This document shows, in pieces, positions 56,135 through 63,371 of a DNA stretch of 64,000 nt (position 1 is its first letter; the number at the start of each line of letters is the position of its first letter). Source of the stretch: Lachnospiraceae oral taxon 107 str. F0167 (lineage in GTDB: Bacteria > Bacillota > Clostridia > Lachnospirales > Lachnospiraceae); assembly GCA_000209465.1 (NCBI GenBank), contig GL890585.1, positions 166,506 through 230,505 on the forward strand, written 5' to 3'. The position numbers and the translations under genes are program-made. The notes under the pieces are model-generated. The model did no database searches. It saw nothing but the letters and a program-made list of their open reading frames with translations, and had not been told where the DNA came from.

Positions 56135-57760
56135 ATGAATGATGGGGAAAGTTCTACATATATAAATATAAATGTATGGTGGCGAGCGGTTACCTTTATA
56201 CTATCTACGGTATTTTATATTTTAGTATCGCTATACAATAATGAATATATAAACAAAATAATAATTTTGGGAATACTTATATCCTGTGGTCTAAGTTGCT
56301 GGCTGTATAAGAGAGTTTGTGAGAACAGATTACATTTTAGGATAATGTTTGTGTTGGAAGTCTTTTCTTATGGAATTTTTATATTCTTGAGCGGAGGATT
56401 TAACAGCCCATATCTTTGGTATGAAGTAAACTGTATTTTACTTATGGTGGCTTTAGATAAAAATATATCTGTGACTTTTATTTCATGTGTCTGGTGTTTA
56501 TTCTGTGCGGTAGCGGGTAAAAGTATCGAAAATTCTTCTTATCAAGATATAAATATCATACTTGGAATGGCTATGCTGATGTGTGAGTTTTATATTGTTC
56601 GTTACTATATAACATATATCGGTAAACAAAAAGAAGAATTGGAAAGTTTAAATGCTGAACTTGAAAGAGAAAAGGAGCTTAGTAATTATGCTTTTTTGAT
56701 GTTGGCGGAGCTTAGTGACAGCTTCGGACTTTTTGCAATGACGGATCCTAAAAAGATAATGGAAAAGCTGTCAATGTTACTAAGAAAAAATAAGTTGTAT
56801 TCAGAGTTTATTCTTATAAAATTTGCAAGAGAAGGTGTTCCGGAGATTATAGAAAGTTATCAAACTGATAGGGAAAGGTTTGATGATATAGTAAAAAGGA
56901 TTAAATTTTGGAATGAGACATATACTAATACCATATCTAAAGAGGTATATAATGAAATATTTTATATGGAATCCGGAGGAAATAAGTATGAAGTAATATC
57001 TATTGGAGAGGCTACATATGTTAGCGGAGTTTTGGTCAGAAAAATATCTGAAATTTTTAAAGATGAAAAAGATTTTTATTTATATCTGATAAAGTCTGTT
57101 TTCAATAATCTTGATACATATTCTCAAGTTGAAAGGTTTGTTGCGGTAGAAGAACAAAACCGTATTGCAAATGAAATCCATGATACTGTAATACAAAAGC
57201 TTTTCGGTATTACCTGTAGTCTGGCTGTTTTGGAAAATAAAGTAAAAATGGCGGAGAAAAATATGGAAAAGAATGAAATTATAGATTCTATACATATGTT
57301 AAAAAAATCTGTCGAAAGTACTATGGCGGAACTTAGAGAAAGTATATACGGTAAAAGGTTTAAAGATAATTTAAACACTTTTATTCATACAATTTATGCA
57401 TATATGGAGGAAATAGAAAGATTAAATGATGTAAGGATAGATGTAGATTTAGATGAGCAGTCCGATTATATACCGATAGCACAGAAGATAGCTCTGTACA
57501 GGGTTGTATGTGAATCGACCAATAATGCTATAAAACATGGAAAAGCAAAAAATATAGAAATTGAGTTGAAGTTAAAGTCGGACACAATTGAATTAAAAGT
57601 AGAAGATGACGGAGGGGGGTTCTCGAAAGAAGACAAGAATTTCACAGAGGGAAATGGCTTGAGAAATATGAGGAGCATAGCGGTTTTGCTAAAGGGATAT
57701 TTGAGTATAGTACATAGTGATAAAAGCGGAGTTAGAGTTAAGCTTAGTTTACCAAGATAA
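56135..57760 (+). CDS. NarL/DegS-type sensor histidine kinase with multi-spanning N-terminus
   Basis: The 541-residue kinase has five to six hydrophobic segments in its first 165 residues, then a coiled coil ('KEELESLNAELEREKELSNYAF'), a GAF-like region, and a HisKA_3 domain with 'EEQNRIANEIHDTVIQKLFGI', the phosphorylated His near 347. The ATPase domain has 'STNNAIKHGKAKNIEIELK' and 'DDGGGFS'. It signals to the LuxR-type regulator that follows by 13 bases. The membrane-embedded sensor, lacking a large outside domain, suggests it detects a membrane or envelope cue. ATG at 56135 follows AGGGGT. Confidence 0.92.
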   Translation: MNDGESSTYININVWWRAVTFILSTVFYILVSLYNNEYINKIIILGILISCGLSCWLYKRVCENRLHFRIMFVLEVFSYGIFIFLSGGFNSPYLWYEVNCILLMVALDKNISVTFISCVWCLFCAVAGKSIENSSYQDINIILGMAMLMCEFYIVRYYITYIGKQKEELESLNAELEREKELSNYAFLMLAELSDSFGLFAMTDPKKIMEKLSMLLRKNKLYSEFILIKFAREGVPEIIESYQTDRERFDDIVKRIKFWNETYTNTISKEVYNEIFYMESGGNKYEVISIGEATYVSGVLVRKISEIFKDEKDFYLYLIKSVFNNLDTYSQVERFVAVEEQNRIANEIHDTVIQKLFGITCSLAVLENKVKMAEKNMEKNEIIDSIHMLKKSVESTMAELRESIYGKRFKDNLNTFIHTIYAYMEEIERLNDVRIDVDLDEQSDYIPIAQKIALYRVVCESTNNAIKHGKAKNIEIELKLKSDTIELKVEDDGGGFSKEDKNFTEGNGLRNMRSIAVLLKGYLSIVHSDKSGVRVKLSLPR

Positions 57761-57773
57761 TAGGAGGGCAAAA

Positions 57774-58421
57774 ATGGTGCTTGTGTTGGATGATCACCCT
57801 ATTGCTAGACAGGGATTGGAATCAATTATAAAACTTCATAAACCTGAGGAAGAAACGCTTCAGGCAGGAACTGTAAGAGAGGCAATTGATATAACAGAGA
57901 ACAGACCGATAGATACAGTGTTTGTAGATTTAAATCTACATAATGAAAGCGGCTTTGATTTTCTGGAATGGATACAAAAACAGAATAAATCCGTAAAGAC
58001 ATTTGTAATTACATCATCATCGAGTGAAAGTGATTTTGTTAAAGCAAAAAAACTTGGAATAGATGCCTATGTTTTAAAAGATGCTTTTATAGATGATATT
58101 ATGTACAGTATCAAAGTGGTAGATAGAGGGGGGAAGTTCTATTCAGCTGATTTGCTTGAAAATTTGGGCAATACATCAGAGGAAGAAAAAAAGATAGAAA
58201 CCCTAACAAAAAGAGAGCTGGAAGTAGTATTGCTTTTAAAGGAAGGCTATTCAAATGCAAAGATAGCTGAGGAATTGTTTGTATCTGAAGGAACTGTAAA
58301 AAAACATTTATCAAATATATTTGGTAAGTTGCAATTGTATAGCAGAACAGAAGTTTTGGTATTTGTTGAAAGGAATATAGATAAATTTCAAATGGCATTA
58401 GATTCTAATGAAAAATGTTAG
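57774..58421 (+). CDS. NarL/DegU-type response regulator
   Basis: A 215-residue regulator: receiver with 'VLVLDDHPIARQGL' at residues 2-15, phosphorylated Asp52 in 'TVFVDLNLHNESG' and Lys in 'AYVLKDAF', followed by a LuxR-type helix-turn-helix ('LTKRELEVVLLLKEGYSNAKIAEELFVSEGTVKKHLSNIF'). ATG at 57774 has GGAGGG upstream. Only 42 bases separate it from the first SipW-type substrate gene, so the two-component system and secretion genes likely form one operon and the regulator may act on the cluster itself or on the separate gene at 62000. Confidence 0.93.
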   Translation: MVLVLDDHPIARQGLESIIKLHKPEEETLQAGTVREAIDITENRPIDTVFVDLNLHNESGFDFLEWIQKQNKSVKTFVITSSSSESDFVKAKKLGIDAYVLKDAFIDDIMYSIKVVDRGGKFYSADLLENLGNTSEEEKKIETLTKRELEVVLLLKEGYSNAKIAEELFVSEGTVKKHLSNIFGKLQLYSRTEVLVFVERNIDKFQMALDSNEKC

Positions 58422-58463
58422 AATTTATGTATATAAAATATATTTTGTAGTAAAGGTAGGAGA

Positions 58464-59231
58464 ATGATGCATAAAAAAAGTATGTTTTCAAGAAGGTCAT
58501 GTGTTTTTTTAATTTTGTTTTTGGGAATGGCAGCCATGGGAGGAACTTATTCAAGCTGGTATTCAACCATATTTGCAGAAACTAAAGTTACAAGTGGAGT
58601 TATGGATGTGATTTTCAGCAGTAAAGTCAGTGAAAAATATTCAGCGTATATAACTGATATTAACGGTAATGATGAAACTCCATTGGAAGCGGAATTTAAC
58701 ACTACAGATAAGGAGCTTGAAGTAGTATTTAAGGAAGGTTTACCTGTAAATTCATTACTGGAAGGTAAGCTTTTAAAATTGGAATTTCCGTTAGATACTT
58801 CAGAAGACAGTACAGTTAATAAGTTAAATCATACAGAACTTGAGTTAACAAAAACCGGAGATATTATAGAGTTACAGGCTGATAGAGCGATGATGATCTA
58901 TAACGGAGTCGGTTATTCTCTTGATGAAAACAAGGAAGCATTTACACAACCGTTACAATTTGAAGTTTATAAGACTTTGGATGAAGAAAGTAAGAGTGAT
59001 ATTAGAGGGCAGATATATTTAAAAATGACCGGAGAAAGTATAAAAGAGGTAGGAGATTTACCTACAAAGTTAAATGTAGAGAGTGAAGCTCTTTCTGAAA
59101 TTGCCGATCTTGATTTAAATGAATATGAACTTATCGGAACAATGGTAGACGGTGTTATGGTCACATATTCCTGTGAAATACCTTTTGATGTATTTCAAAG
59201 CGGTTCCAAGGTAGAAAAAAGTGTGAGATAG
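58464..59231 (+). CDS. Exported protein with SipW-type signal peptide
   Basis: The 255-residue protein begins MMHKKSMFSRR, then a hydrophobic core and 'GMAAMGGTYSSWYSTIFAETKVTSGVMDVIFSS'. The pattern of small residues, aromatic and 'xxTxVTSGxxDV' just after the core is that of SipW-type substrates such as TasA and CalY (camelysin). The mature part, about 220 residues, is acidic with alternating strands and has no known catalytic motif, and Cys is nearly absent. It is probably a structural surface or matrix protein. Next in the operon are a second small substrate and the dedicated peptidase. Confidence 0.78.
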   Translation: MMHKKSMFSRRSCVFLILFLGMAAMGGTYSSWYSTIFAETKVTSGVMDVIFSSKVSEKYSAYITDINGNDETPLEAEFNTTDKELEVVFKEGLPVNSLLEGKLLKLEFPLDTSEDSTVNKLNHTELELTKTGDIIELQADRAMMIYNGVGYSLDENKEAFTQPLQFEVYKTLDEESKSDIRGQIYLKMTGESIKEVGDLPTKLNVESEALSEIADLDLNEYELIGTMVDGVMVTYSCEIPFDVFQSGSKVEKSVR

Positions 59232-59241
59232 GAGATTGCAT

Positions 59242-59535
59242 ATGAAAAAGAAAACTTATATCGTTACAGCAGCGACAGCTTTTGTCCTTTTATTCAGTAT
59301 AACATCATGGGCATATTGGAAAGATGAACTAAAAGTGAAAAGTACAATTCCGGTTGTTTATAATGTTGAAGTTGAGATAAAGGAAGAGGCGGAGAGTAAG
59401 GAAAATGATATAATTATTAAGTCTCAGAGAGAAGATGTTAATGCGGAAAATCCGAAAGAGAGTGTGGAAGAAAAGACAGAAGCAGAATCTGAGGAAAATA
59501 TAGAGAGCATAGGCACAGAATCAGAAAACGAGTAA
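59242..59535 (+). CDS. Small acidic exported protein with SipW-type signal peptide
   Basis: The 97-residue product has a basic start, a hydrophobic segment and 'SITSWAYWKDELKVKSTIPVVYNVEVEI', a SipW-type cleavage region with the typical AYW/AYF. After a short strand region the last 45 residues are almost entirely Glu, Ser, Asn, Lys and Asp, so they are probably disordered and strongly acidic. It may be an accessory or minor subunit, as TapA is for TasA, but no sequence similarity can be claimed. ATG at 59242 follows TAGGAG; it is 10 bases after the previous gene. Confidence 0.72.
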   Translation: MKKKTYIVTAATAFVLLFSITSWAYWKDELKVKSTIPVVYNVEVEIKEEAESKENDIIIKSQREDVNAENPKESVEEKTEAESEENIESIGTESENE

Positions 59536-59536
59536 T

Positions 59537-60730
59537 ATGAAAAAAATAAGCCCTGAAAAAAAATATACTATCTATGCGGCTTTTCTTTTATTGGGTGTTA
59601 TATTACCGGCATTACCATACTTAAAAGGTAAGATTTTTAGCATGCCACTAATTACAGCGGTTTATTGGTGTGTTCTTACAGCTATTATATTTTTTCTGTT
59701 ACCTGTTTTATATATACCTAAAAGTAATCCGGCAAGCAGAGATCTTGTAGGATATGGTGTATCCGGAGGAATAATATTTATAGCTTTGGAATTTGTTCCT
59801 GCATTATTTCTGAAAAAGTTGGGGGCAAGTCCTTATGATACATCTCCTATGGGAATATTGTTAAATATTTTTACAATATTTTCAGCGATTACAGCAAAGG
59901 AAATGATAAGACAGTATTCTTTTGCAGCAACATATAAGGGTGTTAAATATAAGCAAGCTGCAATAGTTATTATAACTATTATAATGTGTTTAATAGAAAT
60001 CAATTTTGGAAAGATTGCAAGTACCAAAGAACTTAAGGAGTTGTTTATATATATTGCGCAAACTGTAATACCTATAATAACAAAGAATGTTCTTTTGTCT
60101 GTATTTGTTTTTTATGGAGGAGTTTTGCCGGGTATAGTGTATTTGTGCATTATACAGCTTTTCCAAAAACTATGTCCTGTACTGCCCGAACTACCATGGT
60201 TGCTTGAAAGTGCAATAGGTATTGTGTTTCCGATTATTTATGCAATGTATATTTCGGAACATGCTTTTGCACAGGGATATCAGAGCCGTATGAGTAAAAG
60301 AGATGATATAATATACATATTATCTCTTTTTGCTTCAATAATGTTTGTTTGGTTTTGTGTAGGTGTATTTCCTATATACCCAACAATAATACTGACAGGA
60401 AGCATGGAGCCGTTAATTATTCCCGGAGATGTGGTTCTGGTAAAAAAAATAGTAAAAGAAGAGGAAATATATACTCTGTCAGAGGGGGATATTATAAATT
60501 TTAAGCGGGATAATATAACTATAACGCATAGAATTAAAGAAGTGTTTAAAGATGAGGCGGGAAATGTAAGCTTTGAAACCAAGGGAGATAATAATAATGC
60601 AGTTGATGAAAGAAAGGTAGTTCCTAATGATGTCAGAGGTATTGTTATAAAAGTGATTCCCAAAGTAGGTTTACCAATATTAATATTGAAAGGATCAGAC
60701 AATATTCCAAAAGGAGTTGTTGACAAATAA
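59537..60730 (+). CDS. SipW-type signal peptidase I with large polytopic membrane domain
   Basis: A 397-residue membrane protein. Residues 1-270 hold seven or more hydrophobic segments, unusual for a signal peptidase. The C-terminal part is an S26 peptidase: 'ILTGSMEPLIIPGDVVLVKK' with the nucleophile Ser near 289, 'DNITITHRIKEVF' with His near 330 replacing the Lys of ordinary type I enzymes (as in SipW and ER-type peptidases), and 'TKGDNNNAVDERKV' supplying the Asp pair. It should cleave the two substrates upstream and the one at 62000. The start, without its own ribosome site, is translationally coupled. Confidence 0.9.
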   Translation: MKKISPEKKYTIYAAFLLLGVILPALPYLKGKIFSMPLITAVYWCVLTAIIFFLLPVLYIPKSNPASRDLVGYGVSGGIIFIALEFVPALFLKKLGASPYDTSPMGILLNIFTIFSAITAKEMIRQYSFAATYKGVKYKQAAIVIITIIMCLIEINFGKIASTKELKELFIYIAQTVIPIITKNVLLSVFVFYGGVLPGIVYLCIIQLFQKLCPVLPELPWLLESAIGIVFPIIYAMYISEHAFAQGYQSRMSKRDDIIYILSLFASIMFVWFCVGVFPIYPTIILTGSMEPLIIPGDVVLVKKIVKEEEIYTLSEGDIINFKRDNITITHRIKEVFKDEAGNVSFETKGDNNNAVDERKVVPNDVRGIVIKVIPKVGLPILILKGSDNIPKGVVDK

Positions 60731-61836
60731 TGAGATTTATAAAAAAGAATAAAGAAAAAGAGACGCAAGCTTCCGATATAAATGCCAAAGAATATATTAA
60801 GCTGACAAAGAATATAAGAATCTTTTTTTACATTGTCGGTGCGATATTATTGATTATCAGTGCTGTTTTTTTATTTATAAAAGCAAGACCGCATATGGAG
60901 ACAAAGGATGAGATTATAAATTCTTATAATATTTCCACGGATGCTTCGTACAAAGTACATTTATTGGAAAACAGTGTATTTGAGGGTGAATTTTTAGAGG
61001 AAGGACGACTTTATTCGAGTGCAATTACAGATTTTATAAGAGTTGACTTTAAGTCTGAATTAACTCTGACAGGCTCGCTTAATATATCAGGAAACTATTC
61101 TATAGATGCAGTATTGCAAGGATATCAATCAAGCAATACTGATGAAAAAATTGTTATATATGAGAAAACATATCCTATTAAGGAAGGTGCAATAGATAAT
61201 AGTTTTATAAATTATGCTACTATAACCGAAAGTATGGACATAGATCGTTCGACTTATAGAGATTATGCAAAGGATATTGAGGCTGTACTTGGTGGAGAGA
61301 CTGAAAAAGACTTTTATATATTATTCAGCGGTAAATATGATGTAGGTGGAGAAGAAAAAGAATTTTCATATAAAATAGATATACCTGTCAGCAAGGACAA
61401 GTTTTATGAAATCAATAAAGACAGTATAGTTGTGGACAGTGGGGATTTTACAGAGCAGACCACAATAAAAGTGCAGCCGAAATTCGGTTCTTATGTAGTA
61501 TTTATTGCATTATTACTGGTTTCTACCGGATTTATAGCTTTTGTCAGATTCTTCACTGTGAATATGGAAGGCAAAGAACTTGCATTAAAGAAGCTTTCAC
61601 AGATGATGAGGAAATATGGAAGTAGAATGATATGTATTAAAGGCATACCTGATCTTAGTGAAAAGCCTGTAATAAATATAAAGAGTATGGCAGAAATGGT
61701 GGAACTTTCAGATGAAATCAGAGAAGCCATATTCTATGTAGAGAGTGAAAATGAATTGCCTAAGGATGGTAAGGCTTATATATTATCAAAAGATTTTGTG
61801 TATATTTACGATAGCGGTATACAGAATGAGATGTAA
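60730..61836 (+). CDS. DUF5305-like membrane protein
   Basis: The 368-residue protein has two membrane segments (about residues 32-52 and 255-275), with about 200 residues outside the membrane between them, rich in beta-strand ('RVDFKSELTLTGSLNISGNYSIDAVLQGY', 'FYILFSGKYDVGGEEKEFSYKIDIPVSK'), and a roughly 90-residue cytosolic tail. This matches DUF5305, a family of unknown function often encoded next to SipW-like peptidases. TAATG overlap with the peptidase gene indicates coupling. It may hold the substrates or the peptidase in an assembly complex; that is inference. Confidence 0.75.
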   Translation: MRFIKKNKEKETQASDINAKEYIKLTKNIRIFFYIVGAILLIISAVFLFIKARPHMETKDEIINSYNISTDASYKVHLLENSVFEGEFLEEGRLYSSAITDFIRVDFKSELTLTGSLNISGNYSIDAVLQGYQSSNTDEKIVIYEKTYPIKEGAIDNSFINYATITESMDIDRSTYRDYAKDIEAVLGGETEKDFYILFSGKYDVGGEEKEFSYKIDIPVSKDKFYEINKDSIVVDSGDFTEQTTIKVQPKFGSYVVFIALLLVSTGFIAFVRFFTVNMEGKELALKKLSQMMRKYGSRMICIKGIPDLSEKPVINIKSMAEMVELSDEIREAIFYVESENELPKDGKAYILSKDFVYIYDSGIQNEM

Positions 61837-61999
61837 TATACTACTTTAGTAGTAGTCTAAAATATGACTTGAGGGTGTTTTTATAGTTATATGAATGATG
61901 TATACTTGTTTCACAACGGAAAACAAAAATGAGTTTTTCAAAAGTTGAGTGTCATGACTCACAATTTATTTTTATTAATTTAATTCTCAGGAGGAAAAA
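61837..61999 (+). promoter_or_regulatory. Spacer with likely separate promoter for the repeat-tailed protein
   Basis: A short TACTAC/GTAGTA hairpin follows the DUF5305 gene. TATACT (61901-61906) may be a -10, without a clear -35. TTGAGTG-TCATGA-CTCACAA (61944-61963) is an imperfect palindrome. A strong AGGAGG (61989-61994) precedes the ATG at 62000, so translation is expected to be high. Confidence 0.4.
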
Positions 62000-63283
62000 A
62001 TGAGACGTTCAAGAAGAAATACATTAGTTGGCGGTATTGTAGCATTAGGTTTGGTATTAGCAGGTACAGGATATGCTTACTGGACAGATTCATTAAATGT
62101 AACAACTAAGGCTACAACAGGAGATTTCGGAGTTAAGTTTGTTGATTTAGGATTATACGGACAGTATGGTGATGAGACAATGAAGGGTGCCGGATGGTCT
62201 ATAGTAGACGGTATCGGTGAGACAGGATATGTTGGAGATCAGTTCTTCCTTAGAGGATCAAGTGATTACAATATTATAGCTAAGCCTGGCAGCATTGATG
62301 CTTACAAGGAGAGAGCAAAGGGACACAACAATGTTGATTTCAATGCAGAGCTTGTAGACAAAGAGGGATTATCAAAGGATATCGGAACAGCTTATAAGAA
62401 GGCTGTTACAGATGCAAGCGGTAAGATTTTACTTACAATCGACAATATGTATCCGGGATATGCTCAGGTATTCCGTTCAGATATCGTAAACGTTGGCGAT
62501 ATAGCAGCTAAGTTAGGCAATATCAAGTTTGAGACAAAGACTCTTGATGGCAAGGAAAAAGGAAATCTTGAGGATATGATAGGTGTTGCTGTTTATCTTC
62601 ACAGAGAGCAGTCTATACCTCAGTTCAAGGACAATGAGCCTACATTCAAGCTTGCTAAGGCAATTGCAAATAACGGTGCTGATGACAGCAGATTCTTCAG
62701 AGTTGGTGGAGTTGATTTTGTAAGATTATCAGCTTTAAATGACGCAGATGTTAAAGCAGCATTAGAGAACAATGTTATTATGTGTGCACCTGCTACAGAT
62801 CAAAGACTTGATATCTTCGTTGGTGTAGCTATGGATCCTGATGCAGAAGGTAAGTTTACAACAGGTACAGCAGCAGACAGAAAAGACAATGATGACAAGT
62901 TAAGCCAGGGCAAGGGTGTTCAGCTTTCAATGGATCTTCTTTGGGATCAGTTCAACGTTGGTAAAGATGCAGGTACAACAAACATCTTAGAGAAGCAGAA
63001 CAAGGATGCTGCTTCAAAGCCATCAACAAAGCCGGATGCAGGAAGCTCAAAGGGTTCAAGTGCAGGAAGCTCAGCTGGTTCAAGTGCAGGAAGCTCAGCT
63101 GGTTCAAGCGCAGGAAGCTCAACAGGTTCAAGCACAGGTAGCTCAAAGGGTTCAAGTGCAGGAAGCTCAAAGGGTTCAAGCGCAGGAAGCTCAGCAGGTT
63201 CAAGTACAGGAAGCTCAGCAGGTTCAAGTACAGGAAGCTCATTCGGTTCAAGCTTTGGTAGCTCAAGAAGAAGAGGTAGATAA
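62000..63283 (+). CDS. SipW-type surface or matrix protein with Gly-Ser-Ser repeat tail
   Basis: The 427-residue protein starts MRRSRRN, a hydrophobic core and 'AGTGYAYWTDSLNVTTKATTGDFGVKFVDLG', an excellent SipW-type signal peptide resembling TasA and CalY. Residues 30 to about 335 form a beta-rich domain ('YPGYAQVFRSDIVNVGDIAAKLGNIKFETKT' is reminiscent of the TasA region binding the next subunit). Residues 348-423 are 19 units of Gly-Ser-Ser-x, ending SRRRGR. No sortase or other anchor signal. Codon use and the ribosome site suggest high expression. I propose a fibre or matrix subunit; the tail could bind polyanions such as DNA or teichoic acid. Both are inference. Confidence 0.82.
   Translation: MRRSRRNTLVGGIVALGLVLAGTGYAYWTDSLNVTTKATTGDFGVKFVDLGLYGQYGDETMKGAGWSIVDGIGETGYVGDQFFLRGSSDYNIIAKPGSIDAYKERAKGHNNVDFNAELVDKEGLSKDIGTAYKKAVTDASGKILLTIDNMYPGYAQVFRSDIVNVGDIAAKLGNIKFETKTLDGKEKGNLEDMIGVAVYLHREQSIPQFKDNEPTFKLAKAIANNGADDSRFFRVGGVDFVRLSALNDADVKAALENNVIMCAPATDQRLDIFVGVAMDPDAEGKFTTGTAADRKDNDDKLSQGKGVQLSMDLLWDQFNVGKDAGTTNILEKQNKDAASKPSTKPDAGSSKGSSAGSSAGSSAGSSAGSSAGSSTGSSTGSSKGSSAGSSKGSSAGSSAGSSTGSSAGSSTGSSFGSSFGSSRRRGR
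63041..63268 (+). repeat. In-frame 12-base tandem repeats encoding Gly-Ser-Ser-x
   Basis: Nineteen 12-base units in which GGAAGCTCA and GGTTCAAGY forms alternate, so the DNA period is 24 bases. The fourth residue is Ala, Lys, Thr or Phe, with Arg last. All units keep the frame, so the number can change without breaking the protein. Reverse-strand frames through it are artefacts of the repeat. Confidence 0.95.
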
Positions 63284-63322: not shown

Positions 63323-63371
63323 TAAAAAGGGTGTGTGAAAAATGGTATTTCATTTTTCACATGCCTTTTTT
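63323..63371 (+). terminator. Intrinsic terminator after the repeat-tailed protein gene
   Basis: AAAAAGGGTGTGTGAAAAAT and ATTTTTCACATGCCTTTTTT pair with few mismatches and end in a T run. A second hairpin, AATATTATAA...TTATAATATT, lies just after the stop codon (63283-63312) and may protect the mRNA end. Confidence 0.85.

Follow-up and report, generated by a model that had tools for sequence, protein, structure and literature searches.

What do the seven consecutive genes near the end of this stretch make, and what switches them on? The window, a 64,000-nucleotide stretch of contig GL890585.1 from Lachnospiraceae oral taxon 107 str. F0167, carries seven open reading frames (ORFs) on the plus strand that together span positions 56135-63283 (ORF list and translations). 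A first-pass annotation of the sequence had described a DegS/NarL-type sensor and regulator, a SipW-type signal peptidase, a DUF5305 membrane protein and three proteins with SipW-type signal peptides, here called SP1, SP2 and SP3; the ORFs and domain scores bear out the run of seven genes, the two-component pair, the peptidase and the DUF5305 protein. It had also suggested that the genes may form a surface-fibre system under its own dedicated control, a view favoured by the SP3 structure model, which fits TasA-type subunits, by the co-occurrence of the genes and by a putative NarL-type operator before SP3. TasA-type filaments are known in bacilli and archaea. We consider it about 70% probable that the conserved set encodes a predicted donor-strand filament together with a peptidase, a membrane protein and a two-component pair of its own, and that the NarL-type regulator likely switches on SP3 through an operator of 7-2-7 layout. 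The genes, their order and conservation, the fold match and the conservation of the operator come from direct analysis.

When the SP3 monomer model was compared with known structures, the TasA fibre was the only Foldseek match at E ≤ 0.001, and the five best realigned chains were TasA, bundling-pilus and thread-filament subunits. Two of the best structural neighbours were matched from the first mature residue; the first 18 residues of SP3 have no secondary structure in the monomer model. SP3 also gave a weak sequence-profile match to AbpX. Ten of 36 family members matched PF12389 (camelysin/TasA family) at E ≤ 0.01, and the core of the window SP3 did not. From the model we predict that SP3 is a filament subunit of the TasA/archaeal-bundling-pilus type. 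The earlier statement that the locus has only its secretion logic in common with TasA is thus too narrow, as the predicted subunit fold is also in common.

The SP3 core is followed by a GSS-rich and strongly basic tail of 91 residues (window 63008-63280, net +8), which is also found in P0037, P0041 and L009. A second, unlinked SP3 gene lies on contig C36 of the same genome (L008, 664-1671), with a core 91% identical and no GSS tail. In L. saburreum the arrangement is reversed, the tailed copy (L009) being unlinked and the untailed one (L026) in the cluster. This swap in location suggests exchange between SP3 copies.

The three signal peptides differ in how they were recognised. That of SP3 passed the SipW-signal model TIGR04088 in a genome search (22.9 bits, cut-off 19; 17.7 bits in a protein hmmscan), that of SP1 was identified by profile comparison with SP3, and that of SP2 was read from the sequence by eye. 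Neither SP1 nor SP2 reached a family cut-off in the Pfam and NCBIfam scans. The alignment of SP1 with SP3 (hhalign, 98% over 45 columns) covers only the signal peptide and the strand segment that follows it. A profile search of SP1 against the PDB gave nothing usable (best AbpX, E 0.4), and weak matches to the BsaA model in two of 21 SP1 relatives (NCBIfam) were not used. SP2 (net charge -14 when mature) has, as judged by eye, a segment resembling the start of SP1 and SP3, followed by an acidic tail. In three loci SP1 and SP2 are fused into a single protein (L019 6632-7549, L037 2060-3166, L038 2579-3676), in which the SP2-like segment lies close to the C-terminus and has an eroded signal peptide. 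We propose on these sequence features that SP2 is a strand donor that starts or caps filaments. Its acidic tail (net -12) is opposite in charge to the basic SP3 tail, and charge pairing or wall binding is possible.

A TasA-like fold could also belong to secreted surface proteins that do not polymerise, such as coat proteins, adhesins or camelysin-type enzymes, in which case SP3 and SP1 would be the cargo of a secretion and display module. We regard this as unlikely, though it is the strongest competitor. The closest structural neighbours of SP3 are filament subunits, two of which align from the first mature residue. The start segment is common to all three substrates (in SP2 as judged by eye) and makes up most of what is recognisable in SP2, a pattern that a simple coat would leave unaccounted for.

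The evidence for control of the predicted filament gene comes from a dyad, TACTACTTTAGTAGTA, which starts at the third base past the DUF5305 stop codon. The identical 16 bases lie upstream of the unlinked SP3 gene on contig C36, and these two sites are the only occurrences of TACYACTTTAGTRGTA within one mismatch in this genome. Six genomes of the genus hold seven occurrences of TACYACTTTAGTRGTA, all of them exact and each 148-161 bases before an SP3 start. A reversed control pattern gave 1-3 matches per genome in the same six (11 in all); since a single mismatch is near chance in this control, the argument within the genus rests on exactness and position. Sites with two mismatches in the window's own genome were dropped as chance (11 rows vs 31 for the reversed control).

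We then counted a relaxed consensus, TACYNCYNNRGNRGTA, in the stretch of up to 300 bases ahead of each of 41 SP3 genes, taken from the window, the C36 copy and 39 of 40 relatives' loci (L029, where SP3 starts right at the contig end, was left out). It was exact in 23 regions and present within one mismatch in 28, where dinucleotide shuffles predict 0.01 and 0.24; this expectation is a guide and not a P value, because the consensus was picked once the sites were known and closely related loci enter the count more than once. It is the distant loci that carry the argument, and in all five of these (L044-L048) the exact consensus stands before the second TasA-like gene. Over 742,807 bases there are 30 exact sites, 28 at SP3-type positions and the others at window 21985 and L021 11184.

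The dyad has the same layout as the Escherichia coli NarL site TACCCCTAAAGGGGTA, which a passage in PMC4549865 describes as inverted heptamers in a 7-2-7 arrangement, again two bases apart. The response regulator scores above the cut-offs for Response_reg (72.1 bits) and GerE (63.8 bits), its best NCBIfam relative is NarL (118.7 bits, below the cut-off of 250), and its recognition helix is nearly invariant in 24 aligned regulators. On this sequence evidence the dyad likely links the embedded NarL-type regulator to control of the filament gene.

Several observations weigh against this assignment. Eight of the 41 SP3 upstream regions have no site, the consensus is absent from all 26 kinase and all 22 SP1 upstream regions, and the 12 DUF5305 neighbourhoods described below as new have no site near such genes. 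The SP3 dyad does not account for control of the remaining operon genes, and the end of the DUF5305 gene is overlapped by eight of the 28 exact sites, where coding may add to conservation. The dyad might instead be an RNA hairpin, a side effect of coding at the end of DUF5305 or the site of another factor, with the two-component pair controlling something else, and the RNA folding energies at three sites (-5.1 to -6.6 kcal/mol, with z from -0.98 to -3.49) agree with the first of these. We think this quite improbable. The other 20 exact sites lie outside the DUF5305 gene, some of them ahead of unlinked SP3 genes; the arms are often not fully paired while the TAC/GTA ends persist; and the NarL-like layout occurs next to a NarL-like regulator with a conserved recognition helix.

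In a Filifactor alocis metagenome-assembled genome (L024, 5023-6925) the SP3 gene lies outside any such cluster, with the operator present, and faces a gene resembling superoxide reductase by eye (FA796 in the literature). Of the Filifactor passages available in that literature some name FA796 and none names the SP3 gene, and no paper on F. alocis and SipW was found in the open-licence literature, which is not proof of absence. The exact operator at L021 11184, the second in that locus, lies 88 bases before the contig end, and L017, from the same metagenome-assembled genome, starts 168 bases before its SP3 gene; an assembly gap has probably separated SP3 copies that stand in tandem.

The whole gene set recurs in relatives. 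A scan of named genomes found the order kinase, regulator, SP1, peptidase, DUF5305, SP3 complete in 23 of the 40 loci, several of which are cut by contig ends, and this recurrence takes the arrangement beyond chance. The peptidase and DUF5305 are each present in 35 loci, the regulator in 33 and the kinase in 28. Hence an embedded regulator pair is not unusual, as had been thought, and the bsa operon of Clostridium perfringens likewise has its own pair, BsaR/BsaS. In L039 and L041 SP3 stands before DUF5305, L043 has a permuted order, and in L044-L048 two TasA-like genes come ahead of the peptidase. A protein search with SP3 returned 303 relatives, with identities of 52-89% among the best 120 of them; the matches listed include Lachnoanaerobaculum, Peptoanaerobacter, Peptostreptococcus, Oribacterium, Filifactor and unclassified Bacillota.

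DUF5305 is patchy in its distribution, scoring above cut-off in 16 of 291 genomes of the class (own genome included); at family level a relative was found in three of 100 genomes, and two of these three belong to the same genus. Twelve of these 16 neighbourhoods are new relative to the 40-locus set: three of the contigs are equal in length to contigs of that set, and L088 maps like L087. A SipW-type match accompanies DUF5305 in 14 of the 16, three of these matches (L094-L096) being weak; the two without it (L084, L086) are on contigs of 8,216 and 3,151 bases. L094, L095 and L096 hold a variant cluster, DUF5305-kinase-regulator, in which no substrate was recognised and a weakly matching SipW-type protein (31-36 bits) is encoded on the other strand. 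A further DUF5305 match in the window's own genome, on contig C28, stayed below cut-off at 20.7 bits, and inspection of its ORF by eye suggested that it is unrelated.

The peptidase passed Peptidase_S26 (25.9 bits, cut-off 22.9) and TIGR02228 (69.4 bits, cut-off 51.85), the latter in place of the SipW equivalog NF046067 (66 bits vs 190). A simple hydropathy scan gave ten hydrophobic segments, and Ser289 and His331 are invariant in 24 aligned relatives. The DUF5305 protein scored 122.2 bits with its Pfam model (cut-off 29). Its structure model (predicted local distance difference test score 87.9, predicted template modelling score 0.62) has a helix at 27-52, an immunoglobulin (Ig)-like sandwich at 55-248 placed outside the cell, a helix at 252-275 and a small C-terminal domain. 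Structural matches to Kir channels, ASOR, transglutaminases, arrestins and CsgC were read as a generic Ig-like sandwich beside helices and were not used for function. A PDB profile search gave nothing usable, and no paper on DUF5305 was found in the open-licence literature, which does not prove absence. Because of its constant gene company we infer that DUF5305 may be an anchor or assembly platform.

The sensor kinase combines HisKA_3 and HATPase_c with about five predicted N-terminal transmembrane helices. It has the motif GGFNSPY at residue 87, and GGxxSP[FY] occurs in the membrane part of 24 of 27 kinases. In RegB, according to a passage in PMC8191878, GGXXNPF serves quinone sensing. Redox sensing by this kinase is only a lead, since it has S in place of N and belongs to a different kinase type from RegB.

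These elements can be assembled into a proposed model. The SipW-type peptidase would cut SP1, SP2 and SP3 just ahead of an aromatic mature start. SP3 would then polymerise, as its predicted fold suggests, by passing its N-terminal strand to the next subunit. SP2, a strand-like segment and acidic tail with no recognisable body, might start or cap the chain by analogy with the role proposed for the N-terminal part of TapA towards TasA, and SP1 may be a second minor subunit. DUF5305, with its Ig-like domain between two membrane helices, may hold the growing filament at the membrane, which is the weakest step. Once phosphorylated by the kinase, the regulator would bind the operators observed before SP3 and its unlinked copies. 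A more detailed version is tentative: a sortase-independent clostridial filament machine in which SP2 presents a donor strand on an acidic tether and primes SP3 at a DUF5305 platform, a GGxxSP[FY] sensor with a RegB-like motif signals to the NarL-type regulator, and one operator also drives unlinked subunit genes.

A SipW fibre with its own regulator is not new, because the C. perfringens operon sipW-bsaABCRSD is one: in the text available from PMC7395162, BsaR/BsaS is needed for expression, SipW for secretion, BsaA polymerises and purified BsaR binds the sipW promoter. This was the only paper that fitted by title for SipW with two-component control in Clostridium in the open-licence literature, which again does not prove absence. 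Both operons encode SipW together with a number of secreted proteins and a two-component pair, but that the present locus is simply of bsa type is very improbable, since TIGR04090 (BsaA) matches neither SP1, SP3 nor the genome at E ≤ 0.001, BsaA scores over cut-off in six of 291 class genomes, none of which belongs to the 16 that have DUF5305 over cut-off, and the six BsaA loci have a short SipW in five, a kinase-regulator pair in one, and DUF5305 or the exact operator consensus in none. Three of the DUF5305 genomes (G214, G251, G287) match the BsaA model weakly.

With tapA-sipW-tasA of Bacillus subtilis the locus shares a SipW-type peptidase with cognate substrates, the predicted major-subunit fold and a minor protein whose start resembles that of the major subunit. 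In contrast, it has a 397-residue polytopic peptidase, DUF5305, three substrates and its own NarL-type pair, whereas the B. subtilis operon is under SinR (in part of PMC9674648); TapA has an Ig fold and SP2 no recognisable body. The bundling-pilus and thread-filament subunits AbpA, AbpX and 0406 resemble SP3 in fold by structure match, and AbpX weakly by profile, but are archaeal. The Bacillus cereus sipW-calY/TasA system, as far as the text available from PMC13082335 describes it, is likewise a sortase-independent SipW-type heteropolymer with a chaperone-like helper, which there is CapP and not DUF5305.

The locus would carry a predicted TasA-type filament into the anaerobic Clostridia and gives DUF5305 a concrete gene context. 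The candidate regulon comprises one or two genes per genome in the genus. Natural proteins that are nearly strand only offer material to ask whether a bare donor strand suffices to start a filament.

Table 1. Positions in the window of the seven genes and two associated elements.
Feature	Position	Strand	Basis
Sensor histidine kinase	56135..57760	+	Pfam HisKA_3 and HATPase_c; hydropathy, motif
NarL-type response regulator	57774..58421	+	Response_reg and GerE; recognition-helix alignment of 24 regulators
SP1, putative minor SipW-type substrate, 255 residues	58464..59231	+	hhalign vs SP3; no Pfam match
SP2, 97 residues: signal peptide, strand-like segment, acidic tail	59242..59535	+	sequence read by eye; charge
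Polytopic SipW-type signal peptidase, 397 residues	59537..60730	+	Peptidase_S26, TIGR02228; alignment
DUF5305 membrane protein, 368 residues	60730..61836	+	Pfam; structure model
7-2-7 dyad TACTACTTTAGTAGTA, predicted operator of NarL-type regulator	61839..61854	.	pattern counts, NarL-site layout
SP3, predicted major filament subunit, 427 residues	62000..63283	+	structure model, Foldseek; core to 63007, then tail
Terminator-like hairpin after SP3	63326..63369	+	

The conserved dyad, the hairpin and the unlinked second SP3 gene were not in the first-pass annotation. Rfam gave no match in the window at the gathering threshold, and a promoter scan found 49 sites where shuffled sequence gave 39.3 on average; no SP3 promoter is claimed. 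Weak Pfam matches to families from viruses or plasmids, seen in SP2, SP3 and the kinase, were disregarded. Upstream of the cluster are a sugar ABC transporter and an RpiB-like gene (named by eye). A YcxB-like gene (domain match) comes after the hairpin, and the downstream reading stops at the window end, which is the end of contig C3. In L008 (3463-4351) a short response-regulator start runs into a frame resembling a BMP-type lipoprotein, either a deletion or an assembly chimera.

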